DNA of 64,000 bases from a virus. Each line of letters starts with the position of its first letter. Positions within the stretch are counted from its first letter, which is position 1. The notes under the pieces were generated by a model that saw only the letters and a list, made by a program, of their open reading frames with translations, made no database searches and had not been told where the DNA came from. Below, piece after piece: positions 29,443 through 45,638 of the stretch. Location of the stretch: IMG/VR virus record IMGVR_UViG_3300023179_008779, positions 1 through 64,000 of that record. One strand, 5' to 3'. The translations under genes were made by a program, and so were the position numbers.

Positions 29443-31299
29443 ATGCCACAGTTTCCCAACGCATCTAATCCATCGAAATCTTTTGATGTTGTGCATGTGC
29501 CACCAGTCAAAAATTTCTCTACTAAGTTTGTATATAACTTTTATGTTGATGATGAGAGACTGTCAGCTCCAAGAGCAATCGATTCCAGAGGCAACAGGTT
29601 ACCGCTTTCAAAAATTGCACGATACATAACCCTGAACTGGTCCGCGCCTTCTTTGTCTGATTTCGAGCTTCAAAAACAAAGCGTTAGCAAGGTTGACAAT
29701 TCATCAGAATTTTCAATTCGTAATCAGCACGAAAAAATACTGTCTGAAGTTGATTTTTTCAATTCAGGATTTGTGTCTGTGGTGTTTGCTGACCCTACAC
29801 TCGTAGAAAAGTCAAGTGATAACATTGAGACAATCAGCCGAATACAAGCGCACGGTGTTGAAAGCATGTCCGCAATGGCCAAGGCACAATTGAAAGATAT
29901 ATCGACTCAATCAACTAAAAATGACAAAAAATATACTGACGCGCTAGATGAATTGAGCAAAGCTTATTTGCAGCTGGCTGATTCTCCAAGAAATGCTCTC
30001 GGTCTCAGGATCTATGACGACCGCGGCAACGCAAAAGACAACGATGATTTTTTAAGATCAATTGCAGACAATCTTTCCCTAAACGTCAGAATCAACTCTA
30101 ACGTCATACCTGATGTATTGGGAGAGTCTAATCAAAAATTGAATAGTGGGTTTAGAACGCTTAACAGTGCATATGCTGCATCTTTAAATGCAGCACAGTA
30201 CAATTCTGAAGGTATGTTTGCAACCCCCATTTTTTATGACAAGAATGCTTCAAATGCCCTAAAAGTCCCAGTGCAGTTTGTGGGGTACATCATAGACAGA
30301 TACAGGTATTCTTCAAAGACAAGCTCGTTTTTTCTAGAAGAGACTTTCTATATTGAAGATCCACAGACCATGGGCATGGATGACACTTCTGTGCTCTATG
30401 GAGAGACATACGTTTATTCGATTAGATCTATTGCAGCCGTAAGGTTGCTAACTTACGTTCAAGACAGCACAAATTCGTCCGTGGGCGTTTATTACGTGAG
30501 TTCAAGAACTGTGTCAAGTTCTGCTGAGTGCTTTGAATATATCCCACCTCCCGAGCCGAATGACATCAGATTCATATTCGACTATCTAAAGAGAAGTCTA
30601 CACATCGTGTGGGACACACCCGTCAACCCACAGGGCGATATAAAACAGTTCCAGATCTTTAGAAGATCTAGTATCAAGCATCCGTTTGAATTGATTGCAC
30701 AGATAGGATTTGACCGCACAAAGTTAGGTCCCGGGACCGACGGAAGATACAGGACGGGCGAGCTTGTTGATGCTAATAATTTGCTCGGTACACCCGCAGA
30801 CTTGAAGTACTTGATTAGTGACAACGATTTTGCGCAATACTCTTTTGTTGATGAAGACTTTACAGTTGATCCTGAGCTTTACATCTCTTCGGATTACATT
30901 TACGCGTTATGCTCTATTGACGCCCACGGGATAATATCAAACTATTCAACGCAATATCAAGTCACTTTTGATTCGTACAAAAACAAGATCGTGACCCGCA
31001 CTGTGTGTGATGCGGGATCACCCCGTCCGTATCCCAACATGAACTTGCGCATGGACGCATTCAAAGACGTGTTGTCGCTGCAGGGTGATTCTACAAAGCA
31101 AGTCGATGTATATTTCAGCCCGGACTATTTCCGTGTTAAAGACAGCTCAGGACACGTGACGGATATAGTTGAGGCCCAGTACGATTCAGCTCCCTCAAAA
31201 TCGTATTATGTCATGCAGCTTATCAATCTTGATAACCAAAAGACTAATCTTGTACAAATTTCTATACGTGATCCCGAGCGTTTAACAAACTCAGCTTGA
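29443..31299 (+). CDS. Virion structural protein with fibronectin-III-like domain
   Basis: 618 residues, starting one base after the previous stop. A long FN3-like module spans about residues 365-510: 'LHIVWDTPVNPQGDIKQFQI' with later 'YIYALCSIDAHGIISNYSTQ'. The N-terminal third includes 'RYITLNWSAPSLSDFELQK', a second FN3-like edge. No enzymatic residues seen. The two flanking FN3-bearing proteins and shared beta-rich character suggest parts of one external structure that contacts host surface sugars or neighbouring tail proteins. Confidence 0.7.
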   Translation: MPQFPNASNPSKSFDVVHVPPVKNFSTKFVYNFYVDDERLSAPRAIDSRGNRLPLSKIARYITLNWSAPSLSDFELQKQSVSKVDNSSEFSIRNQHEKILSEVDFFNSGFVSVVFADPTLVEKSSDNIETISRIQAHGVESMSAMAKAQLKDISTQSTKNDKKYTDALDELSKAYLQLADSPRNALGLRIYDDRGNAKDNDDFLRSIADNLSLNVRINSNVIPDVLGESNQKLNSGFRTLNSAYAASLNAAQYNSEGMFATPIFYDKNASNALKVPVQFVGYIIDRYRYSSKTSSFFLEETFYIEDPQTMGMDDTSVLYGETYVYSIRSIAAVRLLTYVQDSTNSSVGVYYVSSRTVSSSAECFEYIPPPEPNDIRFIFDYLKRSLHIVWDTPVNPQGDIKQFQIFRRSSIKHPFELIAQIGFDRTKLGPGTDGRYRTGELVDANNLLGTPADLKYLISDNDFAQYSFVDEDFTVDPELYISSDYIYALCSIDAHGIISNYSTQYQVTFDSYKNKIVTRTVCDAGSPRPYPNMNLRMDAFKDVLSLQGDSTKQVDVYFSPDYFRVKDSSGHVTDIVEAQYDSAPSKSYYVMQLINLDNQKTNLVQISIRDPERLTNSA

Positions 31300-31406
31300 G
31301 CAAATCGGCAGTTTAACGCGCACTGATATGTCATACCATGTTCTAAAGGTTGTCAAAAAAGTTTTGTTTCTGATATTTGTATGTTCAGATAGCGAGGTTC
31401 ATCGAT

Positions 31407-32150
31407 ATGGGTTGGTTAGATCATTCAACTAATAACATCATTCTAGATGCTGTTCTTACCGATTACGGTCGCCAGCGCTTAGCAATGGCAAACAGCGCTT
31501 TTAACATCAAGAAATACGCTTTGGGAGACGATGAGATTGATTATCGTATGATCAAAAAATACGGTAGAACAGTCGGAAAAGAAAAGATCGAAAAGAACAC
31601 ACCCATATTCGAAGCACTTACTAATCCGTCGATCGCGCTCAAGTATAAGCTTGTGGGCCGTGATCCACCCGGCAATGCTTCAATTTCGACAATCTACATG
31701 CCTGTCTTGACATATGTTAAGTCGCCCGCTTTGACCACGTCTACACCGTCTGATACTGTTACAGTGAATCTTTCTTACAACAATTCGCAAAATATTCCTG
31801 CTGAGTTAGCACAGACAGTGTACAAGATAAAGGTATCAGATCGGTTCTTCACGATCGATTCTCCCACCAACGGTACTTTGACTTCAGTGGATTCAGCGGC
31901 ATCTAGTGTTAGTGCGGGTGACCCAAACAGGATTGCCACTTATACTTTCACGACTTCTTCTGGCAAGATTGTCACGTCTATTTCTTTCAAAGTTTCTGCA
32001 AGATCAATAGACAACACGACACTTTCAGTGTATGGCAGAGCTTCAAGCTCAACAAACCGTCAAATAAATAGCTATATCACAGTAACCGGCGAAAGACACG
32101 GCTGCAGCGTTGATATACCCGTGACGTATACAGCAACACTTTCAACCTGA
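31407..32150 (+). CDS. Virion structural protein with 'ILDAVLTDYGRQRLA' domain
   Basis: 247 residues from the ATG at 31407, which has GCGAGG about 9 nt upstream; an in-frame TTG at 31377 is less likely. The N-terminal 100 residues ('NNIILDAVLTDYGRQRLAMA', 'IKKYALGDDEIDYRM') match a recurring phage structural domain and are paralogous to the N-terminus of the protein at 21363. The C-terminal half is beta-rich and Ser/Thr-rich with an Ig-like look ('SSGKIVTSISFKVSARSIDN'). Particle location unknown. Confidence 0.72.
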   Translation: MGWLDHSTNNIILDAVLTDYGRQRLAMANSAFNIKKYALGDDEIDYRMIKKYGRTVGKEKIEKNTPIFEALTNPSIALKYKLVGRDPPGNASISTIYMPVLTYVKSPALTTSTPSDTVTVNLSYNNSQNIPAELAQTVYKIKVSDRFFTIDSPTNGTLTSVDSAASSVSAGDPNRIATYTFTTSSGKIVTSISFKVSARSIDNTTLSVYGRASSSTNRQINSYITVTGERHGCSVDIPVTYTATLST

Positions 32151-32160
32151 CGGATCTTAC

Positions 32161-33510
32161 ATGGCTACAACTAAAGACATATCAGAGAGTGACAAGAAGA
32201 CAACTCGATCATTCCTCAATCAGCTAATCGATGTACTGCAACAGGATATTAGCTCTTCTGTTTCAAGAAGAAAATATCAGGTTTTCGTTACAGGGGGCGT
32301 CGGTCCCGGAGTAACGTCTTCCCTTTTTCAAACAGTATACGATCAAGATTTCACGCTTCAGACAGCTAACCCTATATTCGATATCACTTTTGGATTGGCT
32401 GCACCCGATGCAGCCAAAGGGACTGATAACCCAGTCAATAACGCTGGTACTCCAAACGCTGCGGGAATAGCTGGTGTTGCATCAACCGGCAAGGACGTAA
32501 CAGGCAAATATCTGTATCGAAGCAGCTCTCTTATGATGAGGGAGAAGACAGACATCTATAGCCAATTCTCCCAGATGCTTTTGGGGAATAGATCTAGAAT
32601 GTTTAGGTTGCCCAAAGACGCGACTTTCACCACGGATATAACAAACCAGGTCGATATTGACGCTGCGGTGTTCATTGCCTTTAAGAGACTCTTTGCAAGA
32701 GATCAGATCAAGAGAGAGACTTTTGCAATGAGGTTCTATCAATCAGCGTCATATGTTGATAAAACCTTCAAGGGCGGCACTGGAAATGGCGATGAACCCT
32801 CATCCAATGATGCTGACAACGTGCCCAATCTATTTTTTACTTCAACGACAGGATCAACGATATACACAGATATCGGTTCTTCAGACTCTAGATTCTTCGA
32901 AGTGGGTGGTCAATACGGGTATCTAGTTGACGCTTCAGCAGTTAGCAGAGCTGTCGGCCTCATGTTTTATGACAGCGGTATAGCAGTCCTTGATGCTAGC
33001 AGGATAACATCAGGTTCTCAGTTCATCTCTGGCACGATATCTGCAATGCATCCACTGGGTAAAATTAATCTTGGCGGCCCGGGCACTGAAACTGCGTTCA
33101 AAGCCAAGGTCATACCCGACCTAGTTGTCTCCGCTTCTATAGATGACATAGTTGATCACTTTTGCTATGCGAGGTTCGGTGACTCAAATCTCACGGCAAT
33201 AACTTTCCAAAATGTCACCAACATCAATTCTTCTCTCGTGTTCTGTAGAGCCCTGCCTGATGACTTCAACTATTCATCAAATCCAACTTACATCGATTCA
33301 AAGACAGACTCTTCAACATCAAGCGTTAAAGGCCGCCTGACGATCTACGATCCAGCACTGCCTGAAGAATCACAAGATACATTTACTTACATAACGACAA
33401 TAGGACTCTACGATAACGACAATGGTCTTCTTGCCGTCGCTAAATTAAGTCGCCCTGTCGAAAAGAACCCAGGCAGAGATCTGACGTTCAGAGTAAGACT
33501 TGACTTCTAG
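32161..33510 (+). CDS. Virion structural protein sharing C-terminal domain with 33596 protein
   Basis: 449 residues. The C-terminal 95 residues ('SNPTYIDSKTD', 'FTYITTIGLYDNDNGLLAVA', 'KLSRPVEKNPGR', ending R-L-D-F) are clearly related to the C-terminus of the next protein. The shared end may be a docking domain for a common platform such as the baseplate or neck. The N-terminus 'SFLNQLIDVLQQDISSSVSR' is helical. It follows the previous gene by 10 nt and precedes an 85-nt gap with a promoter-like box. Confidence 0.72.
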   Translation: MATTKDISESDKKTTRSFLNQLIDVLQQDISSSVSRRKYQVFVTGGVGPGVTSSLFQTVYDQDFTLQTANPIFDITFGLAAPDAAKGTDNPVNNAGTPNAAGIAGVASTGKDVTGKYLYRSSSLMMREKTDIYSQFSQMLLGNRSRMFRLPKDATFTTDITNQVDIDAAVFIAFKRLFARDQIKRETFAMRFYQSASYVDKTFKGGTGNGDEPSSNDADNVPNLFFTSTTGSTIYTDIGSSDSRFFEVGGQYGYLVDASAVSRAVGLMFYDSGIAVLDASRITSGSQFISGTISAMHPLGKINLGGPGTETAFKAKVIPDLVVSASIDDIVDHFCYARFGDSNLTAITFQNVTNINSSLVFCRALPDDFNYSSNPTYIDSKTDSSTSSVKGRLTIYDPALPEESQDTFTYITTIGLYDNDNGLLAVAKLSRPVEKNPGRDLTFRVRLDF

Positions 33511-33579
33511 TCAGCACACCTGGGTAACGTGCCGGGACTGATGAGATATTTTTGTCGAGTCAACGTTCTGGCACCGTCT

Positions 33580-33587
33580 TATAGTTA
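33580..33587 (+). promoter_or_regulatory. Promoter-like TATAGTTA before LamG-domain protein
   Basis: An exact NATANTTA match, 8 nt (CGTGTAGC) before the ATG at 33596. No ribosome-binding site fits in the interval. It lies in the 85-nt gap that separates this gene from the previous structural gene. Confidence 0.5.
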
Positions 33588-33595
33588 CGTGTAGC

Positions 33596-36118
33596 ATGTC
33601 GATCGTCAGAATCATACCCGCCAACGATATAGAGACCTTTACGCTGGTCACAACTGCGCATAGAAGCTATATCTCAAGCTCAACTCTGGGTGTGACTGGG
33701 TCTATAAAGGTCAGGCCCCGACAATCTACTCTCGAGCGTGACACTGCAAAATCATTGCAGTTTAATGACATCAACGGTCTTGTAGTCGTTGATTCCTCCT
33801 ATGATAAAACAGCCGAATCGTTGGTCAACAAGGCAAGGACACTTAGGGCTAGCGGTCAACCAATCACTTCACAAGCTGAAAAATTCGTTAGTTTGGCTAA
33901 TGCAGTATCTACTCGAGAAACCGCTGTTCTTGATGTAGAAAGATTCACTCCAACGACGAGAGTTACCAAAAGGACTTTTCAAAAAAACAACGTAAAAGAC
34001 ATGCTAATGCCACATTACAGGGTTGAATACCCTCATGCGCATTGGGCATACACAAATTACAATTCTTTGAATTTTTTTACTTCGCACAGCGGAGCAAAGC
34101 AATTAGTTCCTGACTCTTCTGTGCTTCTATTTCCAAACGCAGTTGACGCCGATGTGCCGGGACAAGACGGATATGTTTCAGGGTCATATTGTCTTACGGG
34201 AGGGTTTAGCTTTGATTTCTACATCAACCCGAGATATACCTCAGACAGCTCTGACAAGAACTCATTCACTGCTGGCACGATATTCCATCTATCATCAAGT
34301 TATGCACTGTCTCTTGTTACAGGATCTAAGAAGGACTACAACGGTGTTGCGCAAGGGTACCGCATGCTATTGCAACTCAGTCACTCTGCGGATATAAAGC
34401 CCTCCGCTGCCTTGCCGGGCAACTACCCAAGTGACTTAGTTTTTCTTTCTGAAGACAATAGCTTACTGCATAACAACTGGCATCACGTCGTTGTGAGGTG
34501 GGGCACTTCTACCATTAATAACGGGACAGGTTCTTTTGTTGTCGATGGCGTCAATAGAGGAAATTTTGTTATACCAAGTGGTACGATCATGCCCCGTAAA
34601 TTTGCAAATTCTCTTAATCCTGATGTCCTCAGCGTGGGCAATTACTACGAGGGTAAAAACCTAGGAACATCCGCACAAAGTATGTTCTTTGCTGCACGTA
34701 CCGCTGAAAGAGAGGGTCTAGTTCAATTAACGGCTGACAACCTGCAAGATGAACCCGATCATTACACTTTTGCCCACCCTCTTAAGGCTGAGCTTCACGA
34801 CCTATCAATCCGTCGACACTATCTTTCTGACAGTGAACTTGATTACACTGGATCATTTGGTGTGGGAATTGCAGCATTGGATAAGCAAGATTTTGTGTTC
34901 TACATGCCGCCGTTTTTCGTGCAGTCATCTCCCATCAGAAAGTATGTCGGTGATCACGGAGGCATACTACAGACTCCTTTCTTTGAGGTCGACGGTACAA
35001 CTTCAGATCCCTTCAACATTGCGATGTCGTTTGGTGTTGGAGGTCATTACATCAACCTTGAAAACTTTACGAAGGATTTTGCAACGGGCCGTTTCCCTCG
35101 GTTGCTTAATCTGACGGGCACTGCAATCGATCACACGACAATTGCTCGAGAAGCAAATGCATTTTTGTATGATGACGGCGGCGTCGCAAAAAGAAATCTT
35201 ACGATACTGCCCTGTGACGACGGCAACTTTGTACCGAACTATTCACTTCTTGCCATAGAGACGTATTCTGATAGGTTCACTGACTCCAACGGCGCACCCG
35301 ATTACAGTTACATCAATCTTGAGAACATGCTCACTGGTGCTGTTGCACTCGATGCTGCGGGACTGGGTCAGCTCGATCCCGACAGCGCTTCGACCGATGC
35401 TTTCTTACAGACTCTGATCGGTCCGACACCTGATAACCCTGGGTTGGTCACGGGAAGCGCATACTCAAATGCAATCAAGAAGATCCAGAGTGCAATTGAT
35501 TCGGGCGATTACACAGCAGGAATCGAAAAGGGCGTACCGCTCACAATATTCCAGCGCACTTTAGATCCATCATCTAATCAGGTCACGTTCTTCAATATCA
35601 GCAACTTGTACTATGGCCGTAGAATACAACCTGGGTCGTTCATGATTAGAGATGCATCGATCAGCGGATCATACGGTGCAATGTCGATCACCCTAAGGGA
35701 TGACTACATGGGCAACTTGTATCGTGCTGATGCTACGACAACCCACTACAAACAAAGTACCGTCGGCAACATCTTCTATGATGAAGGCATCGTCGTCATA
35801 AAGAATCCACACTTATATTTCTTTGGCAAAGAGCAGTATGAAGTGTCGTTCAACGGTGTTCAAAATCTATATACCACGAAGTATGAGATTCTTGCTGGGT
35901 CTGGGCTGTTGAATTCTTCATCTAACCCAACGTATATCAAGAACGTCGATTCACTTAAACCGTCTCCCTCCCCCGTCGATAATGAGCCCTTTATCTACAT
36001 CAGCGGTCTTAATTTTCACGATGAAAATATGAATATAGTTGCAAAGGCCCGCCTCGCGCAACCCGTAATAAAAAGAGAGGGTGATAAGGTCCTCTACAAG
36101 ATAGCTTTTGATTTTTGA
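33596..36118 (+). CDS. Large structural protein with LamG/concanavalin-like domain
   Basis: 840 residues. Residues about 195-335 form a LamG-like beta-sandwich: 'GFSFDFYINPRYTSDSSDKN', then 'NNWHHVVVRWGTSTINNGTG' and 'FVVDGVNRGNFVIPSG', the usual W-H-H-V-x-x-x-W/Y and D-G patterns. The C-terminal about 75 residues resemble the end of the protein at 32161 ('SSNPTYIKNVDS', 'FIYISGLNFHDENMNIVAKA', 'RLAQPVIK', ending A-F-D-F). A carbohydrate-binding role on the virion surface is a reasonable inference. It is the last of the big structural genes. Confidence 0.78.
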   Translation: MSIVRIIPANDIETFTLVTTAHRSYISSSTLGVTGSIKVRPRQSTLERDTAKSLQFNDINGLVVVDSSYDKTAESLVNKARTLRASGQPITSQAEKFVSLANAVSTRETAVLDVERFTPTTRVTKRTFQKNNVKDMLMPHYRVEYPHAHWAYTNYNSLNFFTSHSGAKQLVPDSSVLLFPNAVDADVPGQDGYVSGSYCLTGGFSFDFYINPRYTSDSSDKNSFTAGTIFHLSSSYALSLVTGSKKDYNGVAQGYRMLLQLSHSADIKPSAALPGNYPSDLVFLSEDNSLLHNNWHHVVVRWGTSTINNGTGSFVVDGVNRGNFVIPSGTIMPRKFANSLNPDVLSVGNYYEGKNLGTSAQSMFFAARTAEREGLVQLTADNLQDEPDHYTFAHPLKAELHDLSIRRHYLSDSELDYTGSFGVGIAALDKQDFVFYMPPFFVQSSPIRKYVGDHGGILQTPFFEVDGTTSDPFNIAMSFGVGGHYINLENFTKDFATGRFPRLLNLTGTAIDHTTIAREANAFLYDDGGVAKRNLTILPCDDGNFVPNYSLLAIETYSDRFTDSNGAPDYSYINLENMLTGAVALDAAGLGQLDPDSASTDAFLQTLIGPTPDNPGLVTGSAYSNAIKKIQSAIDSGDYTAGIEKGVPLTIFQRTLDPSSNQVTFFNISNLYYGRRIQPGSFMIRDASISGSYGAMSITLRDDYMGNLYRADATTTHYKQSTVGNIFYDEGIVVIKNPHLYFFGKEQYEVSFNGVQNLYTTKYEILAGSGLLNSSSNPTYIKNVDSLKPSPSPVDNEPFIYISGLNFHDENMNIVAKARLAQPVIKREGDKVLYKIAFDF

Positions 36119-36127
36119 TCCGACGCT

Positions 36128-36532
36128 ATGCCTCCTAAAAAACGTAAGAGACAAAAGAGAAAAGGTCGCTATCATCGAGGCGAATACGTCTCTATCAAGA
36201 CAGGGCAGGTTTGTAAGTTTCGTAGCGGGTGGGAAGAGAAGGTGATGGTTCACTTGGACGCTGACCCCGGGGTGGAACTCTGGACCTATGAGCAGACAGT
36301 CATCGAGTATCTCTCTAATATTCGGACAAAAAAGTTCCGTAGATACTACCCAGACTTTTATGTCAAATATTCAGATGGTCGTGAAGAGATCGTAGAGGTA
36401 AAGCCCAAGAGAAAGCTTGGGCAGATCACCGTGAAGAAGAAGGCTAATGCTGCTCGAGAATGGTGTGCATCTCGCGGTATAGCTTTTAAAATCATTACAG
36501 AGGTCGAGTTGAAAGAGATGGGACTCTTGTAA
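36128..36532 (+). CDS. Small PD-(D/E)XK nuclease (TnsA/head-completion-like)
   Basis: 134 residues. A basic N-terminus ('PPKKRKRQKRKGRYHRGEYV') precedes a compact nuclease: 'CKFRSGWEEKVMVHLD' (helix with catalytic Glu), 'RRYYPDFYVKY' (catalytic Asp in P-D-F) and 'EEIVEVKPKRKLG' (E-x-K). The same domain forms the C-terminal half of the homing-endonuclease-like protein at 56138, and its last segment matches the relic at 58453. Related T4-like phage proteins are linked to head completion or DNA-end processing. Lying between the structural genes and a RuvC-like resolvase, it may process DNA during packaging. Confidence 0.78.
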   Translation: MPPKKRKRQKRKGRYHRGEYVSIKTGQVCKFRSGWEEKVMVHLDADPGVELWTYEQTVIEYLSNIRTKKFRRYYPDFYVKYSDGREEIVEVKPKRKLGQITVKKKANAAREWCASRGIAFKIITEVELKEMGLL

Positions 36533-36542
36533 GCATTTACTA

Positions 36543-36570
36543 GTGTGCAATCTGTTGGAGGATTGCACAC
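36543..36570 (+). promoter_or_regulatory. RNA hairpin enclosing the ribosome-binding site of the RuvC-like gene
   Basis: A perfect 10-bp inverted repeat, GTGTGCAATC (36543-36552) and GATTGCACAC (36561-36570), ends on the base before the ATG at 36571. The 8-nt loop TGTTGGAG carries the ribosome-binding site, with a further G in the stem. Such placement would keep the site in a loop and press the stem against the start codon, which suggests translational control or mRNA-end protection. Confidence 0.65.
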
Positions 36571-37125
36571 ATGCCACGGTTGATTTTAGGGTTAGATGTT
36601 TCTACTTCTTGCACAGGGGTATGCGTCATTGATTCGGATGTGCAACCCGACGACAAAGGAAGCCACATCATCTACCTTGATCGTATAGAATTCAAGGGAT
36701 GCAACACACTTTTTGAGAAGGCCGATCGCATCCGTTCTATCTTACAAGAAAAGCAATCTTCAGGATGGAAGATTGACTTGCTGGCCTTAGAGGAACCTCT
36801 CATGGGATTTCAAAAAGGCATGTCTTCCGCCGCAACTATCACCACCCTCATGCGTTTCAACGGCATCACGTCATACATCGGCCGTGACATTTTTAAAGTT
36901 GATCCAACTTACATCTCAGCTGCTCATGCTCGCAAGCTCTGCGGTATCAAGATGCAGCGCACTTCAGTCGCTGGGATGAGCGGCAAGGAGCAGGTCTTCA
37001 AGCACATGTCTGAACACGACCTGAAGCACGTGGTGTGGGCTACGAAGAAGAACGGTTTGCCCATCGATGCTTCTCGAGATATGACTGATGCGTATGTGAT
37101 TGCAAGAGCGGCATCTTTGATGTGA
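36571..37125 (+). CDS. RuvC-like Holliday-junction resolvase / RNase H-fold nuclease
   Basis: 184 residues. Asp9 in 'LILGLDVSTSCTGVCVI' is the first acidic residue of the RNase H fold, Glu74/75 in 'IDLLALEEPLMGF' the second, and 'SRDMTDAYVIARAA' at the C-terminus the last acidic pair. This arrangement is that of RuvC-type resolvases. T4 instead uses endonuclease VII (gp49) to debranch DNA before packaging; this protein may do that job here. The start codon follows a hairpin that holds its ribosome-binding site. No overlap with neighbours. Confidence 0.83.
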   Translation: MPRLILGLDVSTSCTGVCVIDSDVQPDDKGSHIIYLDRIEFKGCNTLFEKADRIRSILQEKQSSGWKIDLLALEEPLMGFQKGMSSAATITTLMRFNGITSYIGRDIFKVDPTYISAAHARKLCGIKMQRTSVAGMSGKEQVFKHMSEHDLKHVVWATKKNGLPIDASRDMTDAYVIARAASLM

Positions 37126-37129
37126 ACCG

Positions 37130-37137
37130 CATACTTA
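37130..37137 (+). promoter_or_regulatory. Promoter-like CATACTTA before cargo-type gene
   Basis: A NATANTTA-type box directly after the RuvC-like stop. The transcript would have a short leader containing a GAGAAG ribosome-binding site before the ATG at 37160. The same CATACTTA 8-mer occurs at 58666. Confidence 0.5.
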
Positions 37138-37159
37138 TAATCATCTCACAGAGAAGAAA

Positions 37160-37540
37160 ATGAAGATAACAGTAAACCAGCTACGTAGAATCATCAAGGA
37201 AGAAGTAAAGAGATCGTTGCTCAGAGAGATGGAAGAAGAGGCAGATGCATCCTTCGAAATTCCAGAGATCTCTGTACGTGCTGAAGGCGCAGACATGTCT
37301 GTTCATGAGTTCGTTGGCATGGTCAAGGGAATGGCAAAGAAGTACAAGTCCATCACGTTCGAACCGGCAAATGCCCTCGACAAGGGCGATGGATACTCCG
37401 CGGAGTATGATTCCCTCCTCTCCTACGGTAGCAGGTCTGAACTCAAATCTCTTGCTCGTGACCTCGATGAGGAACTCATGGGTGGTGCACAATCGATCAG
37501 TGATGAGGACAGCTTCACCAATTACGTCTATTCTGCCTAG
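37160..37540 (+). CDS. Putative head-cargo protein with N-terminal QLRRIIKEE signature
   Basis: 126 residues. The N-terminus 'MKITVNQLRRIIKEEVKRSL' is the clearest copy of a signature on eleven proteins of this window, followed by 'LREMEEEADASFEIP'. The rest ('VHEFVGMVKGMAKKYKSITF', 'SELKSLARDLDEELMGGAQS') is a small alpha/beta domain of unknown family. By analogy with T4 internal proteins, whose short N-terminal peptide targets them into the prohead and is removed by gp21, I infer that this is packaged in the head. That is not shown by the sequence alone. Function after delivery unknown. Confidence 0.72.
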   Translation: MKITVNQLRRIIKEEVKRSLLREMEEEADASFEIPEISVRAEGADMSVHEFVGMVKGMAKKYKSITFEPANALDKGDGYSAEYDSLLSYGSRSELKSLARDLDEELMGGAQSISDEDSFTNYVYSA

Positions 37541-37552
37541 AGGCAAATGAGC

Positions 37553-38038
37553 ATGAGAATCACGGTCAATCAGCTTCGCAGAATCATCAAGGAAGAAGTT
37601 CGACATGCTACGCTGAGAGAGGCTCTCGCCCCCATTGATTTCAATGTCGGTGATACCGTCCGCACGAAGAACAATCGTTATGCGGCGCCTCTCTACGGTG
37701 TGCGATCGAACGGAAGCCCAGACATGAGGGGAAAGATTGGTGAATTGTCTCCCACTGACATCGCCACGGTCGTATCCTTCGATCCCGCCGAACCCAATCA
37801 GGTGCTTCTCAAGCTTTCAGATGGCTCTGATGCATTCGTGTTGCATTATACACTTTTAGCTCCTGCTACAGGCCCAGCAAGAATTGCTCCTATTGGCAAC
37901 GAGTACTACGTCACATATTATGACAGGGTAGGCAATTCCCGCAACAAAAAAATTCTTGCAAAGGATTTAGCAGCGGCTGAGATTGAAGCTCGGCGCCAAG
38001 CCAAACGTGGCGAAGAGATCGAAATAAGCGAAATATAA
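37553..38038 (+). CDS. Putative head-cargo protein with N-terminal QLRRIIKEE signature
   Basis: 161 residues. Start taken at 37553, 9 nt after AGAGG; the ATG at 37547 leaves no room for the ribosome-binding site. The N-terminus 'MRITVNQLRRIIKEEVRHAT' nearly repeats that of the previous gene and is followed at once by 'LREALAPI', an L-x-E|A site as cut by T4-type prohead protease. The next part ('FNVGDTVRTKNNRYAAPLYG', 'GKIGELSPTDIATVVSFDPA') looks like a small SH3-like beta barrel. The C-terminus is helical. Probably a duplicate of the targeting sequence on a different cargo. Confidence 0.72.
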   Translation: MRITVNQLRRIIKEEVRHATLREALAPIDFNVGDTVRTKNNRYAAPLYGVRSNGSPDMRGKIGELSPTDIATVVSFDPAEPNQVLLKLSDGSDAFVLHYTLLAPATGPARIAPIGNEYYVTYYDRVGNSRNKKILAKDLAAAEIEARRQAKRGEEIEISEI

Positions 38039-38076
38039 TCTTCATGATGTATGAAGATTGAACAAGTGAACACTTG
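38037..38076 (+). repeat. Two small hairpins after cargo gene
   Basis: A 9-bp stem AATCTTCAT (38037-38045) / ATGAAGATT (38051-38059) overlapping the stop codon is followed by CAAGTG/CACTTG (38063-38076). There is no T-run, so they may be a weak terminator, an mRNA 3'-end stabiliser or a processing site before the primase gene. Confidence 0.45.
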
Positions 38077-38101
38077 ACTCTTCCCGTGTTACGTTTGGAC
38101 C

Positions 38102-39085
38102 GTGGCCATACGCTCGGTCTCCGATAGCATAGCGTTTTACGAGTCTGTCTTTGGAAGGGGGCGCATATCTGCGAACGGCATCAACTTCGATGTTCGTTGC
38201 CCAATATGCGCCCCTTCCGATCCGTCAAAGAAGAAGCTGTCGATCAGGACCGACACTTCGGCAAATCATTGCTGGGTGTGTGGGTTCAAGTCACGATCGA
38301 TCGCTCCACTGATCAGAAAGTACGGGACTCAATCACAGCTCTCTGCTTTCAAGGAGCTGTTCGGATTGAACGATCAAGCGTCCCAGCTCGTCACGGGCGA
38401 ACGTGAGGACGAAAGAAGGGCAGTCTTGCCACCTGACTTTCAACTGCTCACGGTAGCACCAGTCTCAGACCCCGACGTCAAAGCTGCCTGGCGGTACCTC
38501 GTGGGGAGAGGTCTCACCGAGAAAGACGCGTGGTACTTCAAGTTCGGTCTGTCCAACGAACCGAGATGGAAGCGAAGGATTCTCATGCCCTCCTTTGACT
38601 CGTCCGGCAACCTCAACTACTTCACTGCTCGTGCAATCGACAAGGACAGGAAGCCGAAGTACGACAATCCCGACGTCGACAAGAACCCCGTCGTTTTCAA
38701 CGACATCAATCTTGTCTGGACGAAACAGGTCGTCCTCGTCGAAGGTCCCTTCGACCTCGTGAAGTGTCCCGAGAACACCACAGCACTCCTCGGATCTGAA
38801 CTGGACGAGAGGCATGAGATCTTCAACAAGATCTTGATCAACAACACGCCCGTTGCGTTGGCCCTCGACGGTGACATGTGGGACACCAAGACTCCCAAGA
38901 TTGCCAAGAAGCTTGCAGAATATGACGTCGATTATGTGGTGGTAGACGTCAGGGCTTGGGGCGATCCAGGTAGCATGTCGAAGGCTGAGTTCGAGAAGGC
39001 CTTGGCGGAGGCATCACGTCCCACTTGGGAAGACGAATTCAGCAGAAAGCTTAAAAGAGCAGGACAAGTTAGTTTGCGTCTCTAA
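38102..39085 (+). CDS. DnaG-type DNA primase with zinc-binding and Toprim domains
   Basis: 327 residues, GTG start. The zinc finger is 'VRCPICAPSD' with 'NHCWVCGFKS' (C-x-x-C ... H-C-x-x-C). The catalytic core shows 'RYLVGRGLTEKDAWYFKFGL', a DnaG-like core segment, and the Toprim motif 'QVVLVEGPFDLVK' with acid pair, then 'PVALALDGDMWDTK' (D-x-D). It makes RNA primers for lagging-strand synthesis, the role of T4 gp61, but at DnaG-like minimal size and without a helicase-binding C-terminus. Its codons are markedly richer in C/G-ending triplets than those of the flanking genes, hinting at separate acquisition. Confidence 0.88.
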   Translation: MAIRSVSDSIAFYESVFGRGRISANGINFDVRCPICAPSDPSKKKLSIRTDTSANHCWVCGFKSRSIAPLIRKYGTQSQLSAFKELFGLNDQASQLVTGEREDERRAVLPPDFQLLTVAPVSDPDVKAAWRYLVGRGLTEKDAWYFKFGLSNEPRWKRRILMPSFDSSGNLNYFTARAIDKDRKPKYDNPDVDKNPVVFNDINLVWTKQVVLVEGPFDLVKCPENTTALLGSELDERHEIFNKILINNTPVALALDGDMWDTKTPKIAKKLAEYDVDYVVVDVRAWGDPGSMSKAEFEKALAEASRPTWEDEFSRKLKRAGQVSLRL

Positions 39086-39109
39086 GATCATGATATTTAG
39101 CGATCATGA
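39086..39109 (+). promoter_or_regulatory. NATANTTA box flanked by GATCATGA direct repeats
   Basis: GATATTTA (39092-39099) lies 6 nt before the ATG at 39106 and is flanked by two GATCATGA copies (39086-39093 and 39102-39109), the second spanning the start codon. Regulator binding to the repeats or a leaderless start are both possible. Confidence 0.5.
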
Positions 39110-40155
39110 AGTCACCCCGCGCTAAGAAAAGACCCCAGATCACGGAATCACAGCTACGTCGTATTGTTAGGAGTGAGATTGCGTATAGAGCACTTGTCAA
39201 CGAGGGCTTTCTAGAAAAGCTCAAGGGTGGACTAAAGAAGATCGAAGGCTCCGTCAAGAAAAAAATTGCTGAGAAATCAAAAGAAGTTCTTACCAAGCTA
39301 AAAGACGGAACTGAGAAATTAGAAATTCCCGAAGGTATGAAGGAGTTCTTAGAGCAGATACCCAAGCAAGAAGGCGGAGAATCTCTTGACAAGATAACTG
39401 CTCAAATTTCTGGGTTTAAGGAAGCCAAAGCCAAATTAGAAAAAATGGCATCTGTCGATCTATCTGCAGTGATGAGTTCAGGCGGCGGCAAGCCTAAGGC
39501 TGAGTCAATAAATCGAAGTGAACTTAACATGTTCTTCATTCTAGAAGAAGAGCGACTTGCTCAGAAAATATATGAAAATGATCTTCGGTTGGCAAGAATT
39601 TATGCTAAATCAGCAAATCTGATTAAGGAAGAGGTCGTTCTTGCTGCTCTAGCTGCTTGGTTTACTGCAATCAAGACTGTTTTTGCTGTTCTTGGTAGTT
39701 TTATTTTGGCATCTAAGTTCATGAAGTGGGTCTCAGGCAAATTGGGATTTGAAAAAGCTGAAAAGTTTTTTGAGCAATCAACTGAAGTGCTAGAAGAGTG
39801 GGAAAAAATGTTTAGAGACAAGGTCGCATTCCCACAACCGCTGCAGTATGCAGCATACAGGGCTGCCGCAGCTGCCAAGGGACTACTGGGCAAAAAAGAA
39901 GACATACTTTCATACGACGATTTTGAGGGGTCAGACGCTCAGAAGAAGGTCGGAAAAACTCTACACTTTGCAGTTTTGATAGTCGGGTTTGTTGAAGCTG
40001 CTCATGAGCTTGGCGAGCACCTGCACGAGCTCATTGAAGATTTTGCTGAGGAGACTCTGAAGCATAGTGCGGGAGCTGCTGCGGAATTTGGTAAAGAGGC
40101 AATTGAGACAGGTGGCGAAGCAGTCAAGTCTTTAGCAAAGACTGCACAGGGTTGA
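39106..40155 (+). CDS. Putative head-cargo protein with hydrophobic helices
   Basis: 349 residues. A basic extension is followed by 'ITESQLRRIVRSEIAYRA' and then 'LVNEGFLEK', which carries a V-N-E|G candidate prohead-protease site. A lysine-rich coiled region (residues 40-90) leads to two strongly hydrophobic segments near residues 180-206 ('EVVLAALAAWFTAIKTVFAV') and 285-300 ('LHFAVLIVGFVEAAHE'). The end is Ala/Glu-rich. A head protein with membrane-inserting helices could help DNA or proteins cross the host membrane, as ejection proteins do; this is inference. No known family recognised. Confidence 0.68.
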   Translation: MKSPRAKKRPQITESQLRRIVRSEIAYRALVNEGFLEKLKGGLKKIEGSVKKKIAEKSKEVLTKLKDGTEKLEIPEGMKEFLEQIPKQEGGESLDKITAQISGFKEAKAKLEKMASVDLSAVMSSGGGKPKAESINRSELNMFFILEEERLAQKIYENDLRLARIYAKSANLIKEEVVLAALAAWFTAIKTVFAVLGSFILASKFMKWVSGKLGFEKAEKFFEQSTEVLEEWEKMFRDKVAFPQPLQYAAYRAAAAAKGLLGKKEDILSYDDFEGSDAQKKVGKTLHFAVLIVGFVEAAHELGEHLHELIEDFAEETLKHSAGAAAEFGKEAIETGGEAVKSLAKTAQG

Positions 40156-40189
40156 TACAAGCCCACAGCCTAAGATAATAATCGTATGG

Positions 40190-43100
40190 ATGCGTATTGC
40201 TCACACAGCTGACATTCACATTCGTGCTCTTTCCCGTCATGACGAGTATCGAGAGACATTTCAAGACTTTATAGACGATTGTCGATCTCAGCGTGTGGAC
40301 CACATCTTCGTGGGCGGAGACATCTTCCACACAAAGACTACAGGCATCTCACCTGAGTACATTGACCTTTTGACCTGGTGGCTCAAGTCGATGGCTGAGG
40401 TTGCACCTGTGCATCTGATACTCGGAAATCACGACGGCAATCTTGTGAACGCGTCCAGACAAGACGCTGTGTCTCCCATTGTCGATGCATTGGGTGATGA
40501 CAGGATCAAGCTCTACAAGAAGAGCGGAGCCTACGAGTTGCAGCCCGGATACAGCCTCTGTGTCTTTTCAATCTTTGATGAGGACGGGTGGAAAGATGTC
40601 AGTCCCGTCGACGGCTCGGTAAACATTGCTGCATATCACGGACCTGTCTGGGGTAGCCAGACAGAGACTGATTGGCTTGTTGAAGATGGTATGCGGACGG
40701 GTTTTTTCGACAAGTACGACTTCACCCTGCTCGGTGATATTCATAAGAGACAAGATCTTCTACTGCGCGACGGGCGCCCGGTCATGTGTTACCCAGGTAC
40801 CCTGATCCAGCAGAATTATGCAGAAGAATTAGTCCACGGGTATCTTATCTGGGATATTCAGAGTTCTTTAGACTGGAACGTCGAGTTCAGGAAACTAAAG
40901 AACAGGAAGCCCTATGTGACTATTGATTGGTCTGGAAGCGTTGATGATACATTCACCGCTGCAAAGAGATATCCTAAAGGAAGTAGATTTAGATTCAGAT
41001 TTCATGAACATGTGACACAAGATGATGTCCACCTTCTGTCAGAGAAAGTAAAGACTGCACTTCATGCTACTGAAGTGACGTATAAGTCTGATGCCCCTCC
41101 TGAGTCACGTGTGTCTCTACTAGACTCTGACAGTGAGGACTTTGCAGAAGACATTAGGTCACCCGATGCAATTGTCAAGCTTATCAAAGAGCATCACAGT
41201 GAAAAAGAGATAAGTGATGAAGACTTACAGATCATCACTTCTCAAGTCAAGACTTGTCTCTCTGCGGCTTCTACGGGGGAAGAGGTAACAAGGGGTGCAA
41301 AGTGGACCCTGAATCACATGAAGTGGGATAACGTGTTTGTCTATGGAGAAGACAACACCATCGACTTTGATAAGCTCAAGGGTATCGTTGGGATATTTGG
41401 GCCCAACCGTATAGGGAAATCTTCGGTCGTTGGTACCATCATGTATTCACTATTCAACACGACTGATCGTGGTCCCATGAAGAACTTGCATGTGTGCAAC
41501 ATGAGGAAGCCGTACTGTTCTTCAAAAGTGATAATAACACACAATGGAACACCTTACGTGATTGAGAGACAGACGACTAAATCTACCAACCGCCGCGGCG
41601 TGACATCGGCTTCAACTGATCTCAATTTATACCGAATTCGAGAAGACGGAGAATTTGAAGACATGTGCGGCGAGCAGCGCAATGACACAGAAAAAACAAT
41701 CAGAAATTTGATTGGTAGTGCTGATGACTTTTTACTAACTTCCCTCTCTGCGCAAGGCGATGCAAATGCATTTATCTCACAGGGGTCATCGAAGCGCCGT
41801 CAGGTGCTTACTCGTTTTCTTGACCTAGATGTATTTGATCGTATGCATGACGTCGCAAGTAAGGACCTAAACCTTCTAAAGGGTCAATTGCGAAATTTCC
41901 CTGAGCGGGATTGGTCGACGCTGGAGAAGGGCAACAAGACTGAGCTTGCAAGTCTGACTGACCTACTTGACAGAATCAACAGTGTATTTGAAGAAAACCA
42001 AAGTCGACTTACAATGTTGCGCTCTGAAATGTCGACGCACAATGCTAAACCCGTGACCCAGCACGATGTTGAAGTGCAAGAAGAGAGAGTTTCTACTCTT
42101 GAAAAGAAGTCAGAAGACTGTACAGAGTTAATTGCAAACCTCACTGCTGAGAAGAATGATCTTGAGACGAAGCTCGATGCAATTGAGACTGTGATATCAC
42201 GATATGATGTCACCGCCTTAAAAAGAAAGCAAGATGCTCAACGCACGCTTGAGAAAGCAATAGTTGAACTTCGCCATTCTGCTGATCGTGAATTGACTAC
42301 TCTAACTCAGCAGAAGAAGTCTCTAAAGATATTAGACGAAGTTCCATGCGGAGACGATTATCCTACGTGCAAGTTCATCAAAGACGCTCATGGTATTAAG
42401 CTGAAGCTGTCTCAACAAGAGCAAGCTGTGACTCGGGCACAGGATGCCTTGAAAGAAGCTGAGACTGCAGCTGTAGCAGCTAAAGATGATACGATTGACG
42501 ATAAATTGTCAAAGCATGCTAAAGCTTCAGATCTTGCAGCAAAGTTGCGGTTAGAGATATCACGCAAAGAGACTGAACTTGAGCGCCAGAGATCTACTTG
42601 TGATTCATGCGGTTCTTCGCTCGATGAGGCAAAGAAGACGCTTGTTGCACTAAAGTCTGCCTTGAACGAGAAGGAGAGCAAGATCGTCTCAAGGATTAGG
42701 ATCGAGATGGACGAGATATCACGCAAGCTTAAAGCACTAGAAGAGAAGAAGATCACGGCAATCGACTCTCGTAGTAAGCTCAAAGCAATGATTGACAATC
42801 TGCGTGTCGAGAAAGAAAGACGAGACGAGCTGCTTGCAAAAATGAGAGTCCAAGAGCTTGTCTCTACTGCTTTTTCTAAGAAGGGCATCCCGATGCTTAT
42901 TACAAAGACTCAGCTGCCAAGGATCAACGCTGAGGTTTCTAAAGTCCTTCAAGGCATTGTTGACTTCACAATTGAGCTTGAGAATGATGAAGAGTCTGAT
43001 GCTTTGGAGATTTACATCAATTATGGTGACTCTAAGCGGGTTGTAGAGTTGTGTAGTGGCATGGAAAAGACGATTGCTTCAATCGCCCTCCGTGCGGCCA

Positions 43101-43327
43101 TGACCAACATCACCACACTTCCAAAACCTGACATCTTCATTATTGATGAAGGGTTTGGCACCCTGGACAATGCGGGCGTCGAGTCTTGTAATCGTCTTCT
43201 TGCATCGCTGAAGAATCAATTCAAGACTGTTGTAGTGATCACTCATGTCGATGGGATAAAGGACGCTGCTGATCACATCATTGAAATCACAAGAAATGAG
43301 AAAGATTCAAGAGTCGAGATAGCGTGA
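40190..43327 (+). CDS. Single-chain Mre11-Rad50 (gp47-gp46 / SbcD-SbcC) fusion
   Basis: 1045 residues. Residues 1-340 are an Mre11/SbcD phosphoesterase: 'RIAHTADIHIRAL', 'IFVGGDIFHTKT', 'LILGNHDGNLV', 'IAAYHGPVWG' and 'FTLLGDIHKRQD' supply all metal ligands. Residues about 395-1045 are Rad50/SbcC: Walker A 'GIFGPNRIGKSSVVG' (about 403), two coiled-coil arms around zinc-hook-like 'TCDSCGSS' (about 803), signature 'ELCSGMEKTIASIALRAAM' (about 952) and Walker B 'DIFIIDEGFGTLDN' (about 981). T4 encodes these as separate genes 47 and 46. The complex resects DNA ends for recombination-dependent replication and degrades host DNA. No stop or frameshift is seen at the junction. Confidence 0.93.
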   Translation: MRIAHTADIHIRALSRHDEYRETFQDFIDDCRSQRVDHIFVGGDIFHTKTTGISPEYIDLLTWWLKSMAEVAPVHLILGNHDGNLVNASRQDAVSPIVDALGDDRIKLYKKSGAYELQPGYSLCVFSIFDEDGWKDVSPVDGSVNIAAYHGPVWGSQTETDWLVEDGMRTGFFDKYDFTLLGDIHKRQDLLLRDGRPVMCYPGTLIQQNYAEELVHGYLIWDIQSSLDWNVEFRKLKNRKPYVTIDWSGSVDDTFTAAKRYPKGSRFRFRFHEHVTQDDVHLLSEKVKTALHATEVTYKSDAPPESRVSLLDSDSEDFAEDIRSPDAIVKLIKEHHSEKEISDEDLQIITSQVKTCLSAASTGEEVTRGAKWTLNHMKWDNVFVYGEDNTIDFDKLKGIVGIFGPNRIGKSSVVGTIMYSLFNTTDRGPMKNLHVCNMRKPYCSSKVIITHNGTPYVIERQTTKSTNRRGVTSASTDLNLYRIREDGEFEDMCGEQRNDTEKTIRNLIGSADDFLLTSLSAQGDANAFISQGSSKRRQVLTRFLDLDVFDRMHDVASKDLNLLKGQLRNFPERDWSTLEKGNKTELASLTDLLDRINSVFEENQSRLTMLRSEMSTHNAKPVTQHDVEVQEERVSTLEKKSEDCTELIANLTAEKNDLETKLDAIETVISRYDVTALKRKQDAQRTLEKAIVELRHSADRELTTLTQQKKSLKILDEVPCGDDYPTCKFIKDAHGIKLKLSQQEQAVTRAQDALKEAETAAVAAKDDTIDDKLSKHAKASDLAAKLRLEISRKETELERQRSTCDSCGSSLDEAKKTLVALKSALNEKESKIVSRIRIEMDEISRKLKALEEKKITAIDSRSKLKAMIDNLRVEKERRDELLAKMRVQELVSTAFSKKGIPMLITKTQLPRINAEVSKVLQGIVDFTIELENDEESDALEIYINYGDSKRVVELCSGMEKTIASIALRAAMTNITTLPKPDIFIIDEGFGTLDNAGVESCNRLLASLKNQFKTVVVITHVDGIKDAADHIIEITRNEKDSRVEIA

Positions 43328-43590
43328 TGGACTGGAAACCATACCTTAAAGATAGATTGATTGCAGAACACCGTGCTGGATTCTATGTAATAAAGCCCAA
43401 GTATGAACTTTCACAATCGCAACCCGTCTTCTGTCCCCTGTGTGAAAGAATCATGAATTCGCATTATGACAACGAGGCATACGAAAAGTTCTGCGTGTGC
43501 GATCTATGTTCTTCAAAGTGGGCCAGACCCGACCCAGCAAGATGGGAAAGCGGATGGAGACCCGCAAAAGAAGACCTAATTAAATCCTGA
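43327..43590 (+). CDS. Small double-CxxC zinc-ribbon protein
   Basis: 87 residues. The ATG at 43327 shares one base with the Mre11-Rad50 stop (TGATG), so I prefer it to the GTG at 43324. 'PVFCPLCERIMNSHYDNEAY' plus 'FCVCDLCSSKWARPDPARW' give two C-x-x-C knuckles about 30 residues apart, a classical zinc ribbon. The C-terminus 'GWRPAKEDLIKS' is short. Translational coupling suggests it works with the nuclease fusion or simply shares its expression. Confidence 0.75.
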   Translation: MDWKPYLKDRLIAEHRAGFYVIKPKYELSQSQPVFCPLCERIMNSHYDNEAYEKFCVCDLCSSKWARPDPARWESGWRPAKEDLIKS

Positions 43591-43595
43591 CGCTT

Positions 43596-43603
43596 TATAT
43601 TTA
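43596..43603 (+). promoter_or_regulatory. Promoter-like TATATTTA at head of packaging module
   Basis: A perfect NATANTTA match just after the zinc-ribbon stop, followed by CAGGAG before the ATG at 43624. It is placed to drive the packaging and head module. Confidence 0.55.
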
Positions 43604-43623
43604 TGTAATGCAGGAGTCTCATA

Positions 43624-44007
43624 ATGCCTAAGACGATCAACATCAACGCCCTTGGCCAAGCCATCGATACGACCTGGGGTCGCTCTTCAACACCACACAC
43701 GGCTTCATACTCAGTAAAGTTTACACTGTTGGGTGGTGACAGGATGCTGGCGTCTTACCAAGTGGTCACCAATTTCGTCTCTGAGAAAGAAATGATCCTT
43801 ATGAAGCGTCAATGTCAGCGGGAGTCTGATGACGTCATCGCAGAGCATGTTAAGGCTGTCAAAGAAACATACAGGCAGCTTACAGGAGATAGTCTCACCG
43901 TCAAAGAAGATAGCTCCACTGATTCTCTAGAGATCATTGGTTTCAATGTCCACAATCCAAAGAGGACGGCATACTTTCGTAAAAAGACTGTATTTGAGCT
44001 TGTATGA
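43624..44007 (+). CDS. Conserved small protein preceding terminase
   Basis: 127 residues, not recognised as a named family. CAGGAG lies just upstream of the ATG, and the stop overlaps the terminase ATG by 4 nt. The N-terminus 'MPKTININALGQAIDTTWGR' and 'DRMLASYQVVTNFVSEKEMI' suggest an alpha/beta protein. Its position directly before the large terminase could mean a packaging accessory, but it lacks a helix-turn-helix and does not resemble T4 gp16 in an obvious way. I leave the function open. Confidence 0.65.
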   Translation: MPKTININALGQAIDTTWGRSSTPHTASYSVKFTLLGGDRMLASYQVVTNFVSEKEMILMKRQCQRESDDVIAEHVKAVKETYRQLTGDSLTVKEDSSTDSLEIIGFNVHNPKRTAYFRKKTVFELV

Positions 44008-45638
44008 GTAGCAATCCGCAAGCCTCACCACCCATGTCTCGGCAGGCAATTGTCGCCGAGATCTTGAAGTGCGGCAGGAATCCTGTGTACTTCATGAAAA
44101 AGTACTGCAAGATCCAGCACCAACTTCGAGGACTAATACCCTTTGAGACCTATGACTTCCAGGATGACTGTGTCAACCAGTTTCAAGAGCATCGATTCAA
44201 CATAGTCCTCAAATCTCGCCAGTTGGGTCTCTCCACTGTCACGGCGGCATACTGCGTCTGGTACGCCATCTTCAAGAAGGACAAGAACATCCTCGTCATC
44301 GCGACGAAGCTTAACACGGCCATCAACTTCATCAAGAAGGTGAAGACGATGCTGGACTCTCTCCCGCAGTGGCTTCTTCTCACTAAGTTCGAACCCACAA
44401 AACAGTCAATAAGATTCACCAATGGGTCTACCATCACTGCAGTCCCAACTTCACCTGATGCAGGTCGTTCTGAGGCATTAGCACTGTTGATAGTAGATGA
44501 GGCAGCTTTTATTAGAGATTTTGATGAGATCTGGACGTCACTATACCCGACACTATCAACCGGTGGTTCTGCAATCATCCTTTCAACTCCGAATGGTGTG
44601 GGAGGACAATATTACAAATTGTGGATGGAGGCAGAGAGCGGCGCAAACGACTTCAATCCAATAAGATTGTCATGGAATGTCCACCCAGAGCATGATCAGG
44701 CGTGGTTTGAAAAAGAGACCAAGAACCTGCCAAAGAGGAAGGTTGCCCAAGAGTTTCTTTGTGACTTTATATCATCAGGTGACACGTTCCTACAACCCGG
44801 CGAATTTGAGAAGCTGAGGGGAATGCTTAAGCCACCCATAGAGAAACGCGGCCACCAAAATGGTGTGTGGGTGTGGTCTAAGCCTGAAGTTGGTAGAAAG
44901 TATGTTTTGTCAGCCGACGTCGCCCGCGGCGATGCTGCAGATTTCTCAACTTTTCACATCATCGACTATGATACATGTGAAGTTGCAGTCGAGTTTATGG
45001 GCAAGATACCTCCCGATAAATTTGCTGATATACTCAGTGAATATGGCAAAGAGTATAATGACGCCCTAATATGTCCTGAACAGAATACGTTCGGATATTT
45101 TGCTTGTGTGAAGCTTCGAGATATGGGATATCCAAGGCTATATTACCAAAATCACACAGGTGATGCTTATGAATATCACTCTATCAATCCCGACGCAATC
45201 CCTGGTTTTTCTACACAGACAAAGACCCGTACTCAAATTCTTGCCAAGCTTGAAGAGCTTGTAAGAAATGGGAAATTGCGCACCTATTCACAACGACTTT
45301 TTGATCAGCTTCAAGCGTTTGTTTGGAACGGATCAAAAGCCATGGCTTCTAAAGATGCTCACGACGATCTTATCATGAGCTTAGCGATCGGTACGTGGAT
45401 CGTTGCGGGTGATAGTTCATACAATGAAGCAGGTATGAATATGGCGTATGCAATCCTCAAGGCAACGCAGCGTGACAATAGAGGCGTCGAGACTCTACCC
45501 GGTGGCATCAACGATGTACGACCCGTACCAAATCCGCACATGCAAGGGATGACTCCCCAGAGTGTTTCAAGACCTCGACCGTCTGACCAGGCTGGTCATT
45601 ACGGAAACATGACAGATTATTCTTGGCTCTTAAAGTGA
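44004..45638 (+). CDS. 17: Large terminase subunit (T4 gp17-like)
   Basis: 544 residues. The ATPase half has the Walker A-like 'VLKSRQLGLSTVT' (about 68-80), Walker B 'ALLIVDEAAFIRD' (Asp165-Glu166) and coupling motif 'AIILSTPNG'. The nuclease half is RNase H-like: Asp306 in 'YVLSADVARGDAADFS', Glu360 in 'ALICPEQNTFGYF' and 'HDDLIMSLAIG'. It cuts concatemeric phage DNA and pumps it into proheads through the portal. The first 400 nt use many C/G-ending codons and the rest does not, an internal composition step worth noting. Next in order come a small gene and the portal; sheath and tube genes, which lie between gp17 and gp20 in T4, are not here. Confidence 0.95.
   Translation: MSSNPQASPPMSRQAIVAEILKCGRNPVYFMKKYCKIQHQLRGLIPFETYDFQDDCVNQFQEHRFNIVLKSRQLGLSTVTAAYCVWYAIFKKDKNILVIATKLNTAINFIKKVKTMLDSLPQWLLLTKFEPTKQSIRFTNGSTITAVPTSPDAGRSEALALLIVDEAAFIRDFDEIWTSLYPTLSTGGSAIILSTPNGVGGQYYKLWMEAESGANDFNPIRLSWNVHPEHDQAWFEKETKNLPKRKVAQEFLCDFISSGDTFLQPGEFEKLRGMLKPPIEKRGHQNGVWVWSKPEVGRKYVLSADVARGDAADFSTFHIIDYDTCEVAVEFMGKIPPDKFADILSEYGKEYNDALICPEQNTFGYFACVKLRDMGYPRLYYQNHTGDAYEYHSINPDAIPGFSTQTKTRTQILAKLEELVRNGKLRTYSQRLFDQLQAFVWNGSKAMASKDAHDDLIMSLAIGTWIVAGDSSYNEAGMNMAYAILKATQRDNRGVETLPGGINDVRPVPNPHMQGMTPQSVSRPRPSDQAGHYGNMTDYSWLLK

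Follow-up and report, generated by a model that had tools for sequence, protein, structure and literature searches.

The start of the gene for a RuvC-like Holliday junction resolvase in a 64,000-nt stretch of DNA from an uncultured T4-like phage (the window, taken from a virus record of 69,249 bases) coincides with two superimposed features, a promoter-like element that recurs in relatives and a perfect 10-bp inverted repeat that ends immediately before the ATG. The best reading that we can offer, and it is a tentative one, is that a conserved leaderless promoter is combined with a lineage-specific translational lock. The resolvase would carry its own conserved sigma70-type promoter inside the gap that separates it from the head-closure gene upstream, with +1 at or beside the start codon, so that its own mRNA would be leaderless and free of the hairpin. 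In the phage of the window the perfect inverted repeat would overlie this promoter, and RNA reading through from the head-closure gene (assuming that such RNA is made) would contain the hairpin, in which GGAGG and the AUG are hidden. Mainly the promoter-made mRNA would then be translated, and the read-through copies would be silenced. The logic would be the same as that of genes e, soc and 49 of phage T4, i.e. a long transcript is locked while a promoter at the hairpin gives an unlocked one.

An earlier sequence-only reading had singled out the hairpin as a structure displaying a ribosome-binding site directly before the resolvase start; it missed the promoter-like element beneath. If the reading is right, start-codon hairpins should be interpreted jointly with any promoter that may lie inside them.

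The resolvase locus and its relatives

The features of the locus are as follows.

36128..36532, + strand: upstream neighbour, head-closure / TnsA-like nuclease gene (phrog_218, E 1.6e-27; PF08722, E 6.9e-18)
36536..36541, + strand: -35-like box TTTACT, core TTTAC, identified by conservation of the box in relatives
36543..36570, + strand: perfect 10-bp inverted repeat, arms 36543-36552 and 36561-36570, loop 36553-36560
36557..36561, + strand: GGAGG, possible Shine-Dalgarno sequence in read-through RNA only, 9 nt from the ATG
36558..36563, + strand: -10-like hexamer GAGGAT, 17 nt after TTTAC and 7 nt before the ATG
36570..36571, + strand: predicted transcription start, placed from the position of the -10 hexamer
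36571..37125, + strand: RuvC-like Holliday junction resolvase, 184 aa (phrog_159, E 1.6e-10)

The profile match of the resolvase to phrog_159 covers residues 1-181 of 184. A Pfam profile search at E 0.001 gave no family for the protein, and tblastn against annotated phages gave no match. The gap between the head-closure gene and the resolvase is 38 nt, and the head-closure gene is a possible source of read-through transcription into the resolvase. The window also encodes portal, head maturation protease and major head protein families, the portal being of the T4 type (Pfam Portal_T4).

Further observations concern other genes of the window. The T4-type portal gene (46023-49397) contains an insert that matches an HNH endonuclease and, below the cutoff, an intein-splicing family; the insert is likely to be an intein. 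The phrog_218 head-closure family is matched by two genes, at 36128-36532 and at 56138-56989, the second of which adjoins a homing endonuclease gene. The ORFs at 37160, 37547 and 39106 start with a similar stretch, i.e. KITVNQLRRIIKEEV, RITVNQLRRIIKEEV and, more distantly, ITESQLRRIVRSEI.

For comparison 64 loci with resolvase homologues were fetched. The start region is visible in 60 of these and missing in L056, L059, L061 and L062; 44 of the start regions are distinct, a set that still includes near-variants such as L019/L020/L027 and L026/L030. The nearest relative by identity is L001, at 78%. A scan with the L001 resolvase found, among the matches listed and judged by their identities to L001, none closer to the window than the 64-locus set. 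From the scan with the head-closure gene the best 80 of 255 relatives were kept.

We note that the gap preceding the resolvase resembles a hot spot for insertions (L008, L012, L015, L023, L025, L039, L041, L043 and L064). Between head closure and resolvase L039 has a methyltransferase-like ORF by Pfam, with similar-looking ORFs in L012, L025, L041 and L064. The gap holds a NUMOD3-bearing ORF in L015, a patatin-like one in L043, a small ORF in L008 and, in L023, a reverse-strand ORF without a Pfam family.

A conserved promoter-like element at the resolvase start

The sequence TTTA(C/T) lies 33-36 nt ahead of an in-frame start in 34 of the 44 distinct relatives and is missing at that distance in the other 10; this is a raw count without a shuffled control, in which several in-frame start candidates and four distances were permitted. 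The box is present in 29 of 32 relatives that have the head-closure gene directly upstream, and in 5 of 12 of the others.

The box-bearing sequences were compared in an alignment (A2) of 31 rows, comprising the window and 30 relatives selected for having the box; it leaves out box-less relatives, L008, L016 and near-duplicates. The variable position of the box is C in 28/31 rows. The best -10-like hexamer has A at position 2 and T at position 6 in 29/31 rows, and the mean hexamer score is 5.87, compared with 4.05 for shuffled sequences (sd 0.20, maximum 4.74 in 1000 shuffles). The spacer between box and hexamer is 17-18 nt in 28/31 rows, and the distance from the hexamer to the start is 5-7 nt in 30 rows and 8 nt in one, the search range covering nearby positions only. 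The hexamer of the window, GAGGAT, has a score of 5, which places it among the weaker ones; it is a weak match to a -10 sequence.

The signature of the element is thus TTTAC, 17-18 nt, NANNAT, 5-7 nt, start codon. Across the 214 ORFs of the window and the 30 box-bearing loci, 23 of the 24 matches to the full element are resolvase starts. It is present at 23 of 31 resolvases, compared with 7 of 2981 internal starts. Starting at the base that precedes the start codon, the loci L023 and L029 share 99.4% identity; their upstream sequences differ, and L023 has a reverse-strand ORF between the head-closure gene and the resolvase. Despite the differing gap L023 keeps the element, as TTTAC, 18 nt, TATAGT, 5 nt and GTG.

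From this conservation we infer that the element is a sigma70-type promoter of the resolvase. The end of the hexamer plus 7 nt places +1 at 36570-36571, i.e. at the start codon, so that transcription probably starts at the first codon and the mRNA should be leaderless. In a narrow search of open papers on leaderless phage promoters, no leaderless promoter element at a resolvase was found.

Pattern scans gave no support for the view that these phages use the element as a general class of promoter. In nine records the TTTAC/-10 pattern with NANNAT and a start codon gave 14 matches, seven of them known resolvase starts, versus four in the reversed control. The narrower pattern TTTAC-N17/18-AACAAT gave a single match, which is not at a resolvase, versus two control matches. 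A search for a general upstream motif in the window returned only a weak purine/SD-like signal (raw, and without a control) and no late promoter consensus; on reading 36520-36570 no word corresponding to the T4 late promoter TATAAATA was seen. In L041 a TTTAC/-10-like element precedes, by 35 nt, the start of the ORF inserted after head closure (at 1344), and the resolvase that follows this ORF has a TTTAT box at 34 nt. Since each of the two has a box, the L041 locus may carry the element twice.

Structure and stability of the hairpin

The hairpin had been described as a perfect 10-bp stem with an 8-nt loop, its last base directly preceding the ATG, and this is confirmed. The arms GTGTGCAATC (36543-36552) and GATTGCACAC (36561-36570) are 100% complementary, forming 10/10 pairs that enclose the loop TGTTGGAG (8 nt, 36553-36560), and the 3′ end of the hairpin is the base before the resolvase ATG at 36571. 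In 2000 dinucleotide shuffles of the 35-nt stretch from TTTAC to the ATG a 10-bp stem never arose (p 0.0005) and an equally good fold arose once (p 0.001); this analysis also drew on 34 relatives selected for having the box. A 101-nt stretch gave a weaker signal (z -2.34, with 5/200 shuffles as good), and the 61-nt stretch 36533-36593 has a minimum free energy (MFE) of -18.6 kcal/mol (z -2.22, with 7/200 shuffles as good).

The region from -35 to -1 folds at -16.3 kcal/mol, the most stable among 44 starts hand-picked from the ORF list, for which the next value is -11.8 and the median -2.75. The earlier statement that the hairpin is unlike any other start in the window therefore holds. Among 3198 sampled 35-mers eight fold as well as the hairpin region.

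In the MFE fold of 36533-36593 GGAGG is located in the loop and stem, and AUGC is paired with GCAU downstream of the head-closure stop codon, forming an outer helix. In the centroid fold the AUG is unpaired. SD-like words precede 15 of the 44 starts compared with 75 of 821 internal ATGs, so GGAGG could act as a Shine-Dalgarno sequence in read-through RNA. The GGAG that was earlier called the ribosome-binding site overlaps the -10-like hexamer of the conserved element. The hairpin would be absent from the gene's own transcript, because the promoter start would lie after it. That translation might depend on hairpin opening, as the sequence-only reading suggested, is physically plausible for read-through RNA, given the MFE fold and the example of T4 gene 49 (below), but the stem is not conserved.

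An intrinsic terminator was considered and rejected, since the stem is followed by ATGCCACGG without a T-run and the hairpin is absent from the list of terminators for 30000-45000. An Rfam search of 35900-37300 gave three matches at E up to 5, all far under their gathering scores.

The stem in relatives

Within A2 the ten pairs of the window are formed in 38.7% of cells, versus 39.0% in shuffles, and their covariation is 0.137 versus 0.141 shuffled, i.e. there is no excess of either. RNAalifold predicted no consensus pair for the alignment. A conserved structured RNA hairpin is therefore rejected. In 28 of the 30 relatives in A2 there is no stem of at least 6 bp ending at the base before the start. 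The compensatory changes that had been proposed as a check on the hairpin are thus not seen; the relatives lack the stem and nothing compensates for its loss, which is the outcome that the sequence-only reading had itself named as refuting it. Even L023, so nearly identical to L029 over the gene itself and the base preceding it, is without the 6-bp stem that L029 has.

The two exceptions are L001 (7 bp) and L029 (6 bp), with stems of unrelated sequence that end on the base before the start. Two such stems of at least 6 bp in 30 relatives compare with 0.14 expected (0.35 if the end may fall within 3 nt), in a test chosen after the data had been seen. The mean stem length of the 30 relatives is not clearly above that of shuffles, 22 of 300 of which reach it (99 of 300 when L001 too is left out). 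The hairpin as a trait of a single clade is not supported, as the three stem-bearing phages are ungrouped on the resolvase tree.

These results bear on the suggestion that a phage protein of the RegA or gp32 type binds the hairpin RNA and represses translation. The hairpin does overlap the initiation region; however, relatives do not conserve the stem, and mRNA made from the promoter would not contain it. No support for such a repressor emerged from this analysis, and we consider it very improbable. The lack of conservation and covariation of the stem also counts against the preferred reading of promoter plus lock, as do the weakness of GAGGAT as a -10 sequence, the ten relatives without the box and the raised background of perfect hairpins described below.

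Comparison with T4 genes and with leaderless mRNAs

One review (PMC3014915) describes sequestration of the SD and/or AUG in a helix in the e, soc, 49 and I-TevI mRNAs of T4, with late-promoter transcripts of gene e that are without the 5′ portion and well translated. The same review lists T4-type phages in which gene e is free of this kind of structure, and loss of the stem in relatives does not therefore of itself exclude a function. For I-TevI the same control by hairpin and late promoter, together with an autorepressing operator over the late promoter, is described in a second paper (PMC2988022).

The closest comparison is with T4 gene 49, which encodes endonuclease VII, a Holliday junction resolvase, so that a phage resolvase is concerned in both cases. 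The start of gene 49 (AF158101) folds at -16.3 kcal/mol (z -3.21). The SD-like AAGGTAAGG lies in the 3′ part of its hairpin together with the first two bases of the AUG, and the 5′ part contains the word AATAAATA, which resembles the T4 late promoter TATAAATA. The hairpin of the window is likewise at about -16 kcal/mol and would bury the ribosome-binding region in a long RNA. The resolvase families differ, that of the window being RuvC-like, which T4 endonuclease VII is not known to be. As for e and I-TevI (PMC3014915, PMC2988022), the predicted promoter of the window is placed such that the transcript would lack the 5′ arm. Unlike the T4 late promoter, the window element is of the -35/-10 type. 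Moreover the SD stays in the T4 late mRNA, whereas the mRNA predicted for the window would be without SD and leader because its start lies after the whole hairpin.

The leaderless mRNAs of mycobacteria have a short, fixed spacing between the -10 sequence and the start codon, and similarly the -10-like hexamer lies a short, fixed distance before the start codon of the resolvase. The mycobacterial mRNAs serve as the known comparison (see PMC4633059); by contrast, the leaderless state proposed here is predicted in a phage gene family from conservation alone.

A broader proposition, which we regard as unlikely, is that T4-like uncultured phages share a resolvase-specific leaderless promoter in the late region, and that members have repeatedly evolved unrelated hairpin locks abutting the start, convergent with T4 gene 49 and with an unlocked mRNA that needs no ribosome-binding site. 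If this were true, phages distantly related to T4 would control their resolvase by the logic of gene 49 using a leaderless messenger, and the signature given above would mark a dedicated resolvase promoter in uncultured phages.

Origin of the inverted repeat

The window has an excess of perfect hairpins, so the earlier view that the stem is too exact to be likely by chance, which the shuffles of the 35-nt stretch bear out, needs reading against a raised background. Perfect stems with a loop of 3-12 nt number 5 at a length of at least 10 bp (0.49 expected) and 19 at a length of at least 9 bp (2.12 expected), an excess of about nine- to ten-fold. The 64 loci, near-duplicates included, have 60 stems of at least 9 bp versus 15.6 expected. 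Of the 19 stems in the window 13 are inside genes and 6 are wholly or partly outside the gene list, although genes cover 95% of the window; this suggests a general mutational excess with an extra intergenic excess. Ladoukakis and Eyre-Walker reportedly found in 2008 an excess of small inverted repeats in prokaryotes, which the window resembles in having its own excess mostly within genes. Unlike typical repeats of this kind, the resolvase hairpin is directly adjacent to a start codon and lies over a promoter-like element.

It is nearly as likely as promoter plus lock that the promoter is real and the inverted repeat a neutral by-product of replication, formed by template switching between imperfect repeats and without a role. 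Template switching is known to make hairpins (PMC8794818). The excess of perfect stems in the window and in the 64 loci, the location of most of those in the window inside genes (not a likely place for regulation) and the lack of conservation of the stem all argue for such an origin. In addition 9 of 30 relatives share a word of at least 5 nt with the window at a similar offset, and the longest shared words begin in the 5′ arm (CAATCTGT in L022, GTGCAA in L064), as would be expected if the 3′ arm had been copied from the other. This sharing is only a hint, because the arms hardly differ by a column-frequency score, in which the window ranks 7/31 from the bottom with its 5′ arm and 6/31 with its 3′ arm. 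A neutral origin is harder to reconcile with the exact abutment on the start codon, with the same geometry in other sequences in L001 and L029, and with the hairpin region being the strongest of the 44 starts. Moreover the six stems wholly or partly outside genes are an excess such as selection (e.g. for terminators) would give.

The inverted repeat might alternatively be a DNA operator, in which a dimeric repressor bound to the 28-bp dyad blocks the promoter. The dyad covers the spacer, the -10 hexamer and the presumed start, and the words TGTGCAA/TTGCACA occur four times in 36544-36645, of eight occurrences in the window. We consider an operator improbable, however. Its half-sites would be 18 bp apart, an unusual spacing for the operator of a dimer, and 19 of the 20 relatives checked have neither word near the start, L029 having a single copy. 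The pattern of the inner 9 bp of the arms was found at two other sites in viral_contigs, from which near records were possibly omitted; both are inside unrelated ORFs and were dismissed as chance matches.

The four words are at 36544, 36563, 36609 and 36639, i.e. within 102 bp. Such clustering of a 7-mer was seen in none of 40 Markov simulations, and three other 7-mers cluster in this way in the real window.

Two further hairpins of the window may be mentioned. At 19218-19247 a perfect 10-bp hairpin is followed by TTTGTT and resembles a terminator; the GTG ORF at 19226 is unlikely to be a real gene. At 38037-38059 a perfect 9-bp inverted repeat lies at the stop of the ORF 37547-38038, ahead of a primase-like gene at 38102.
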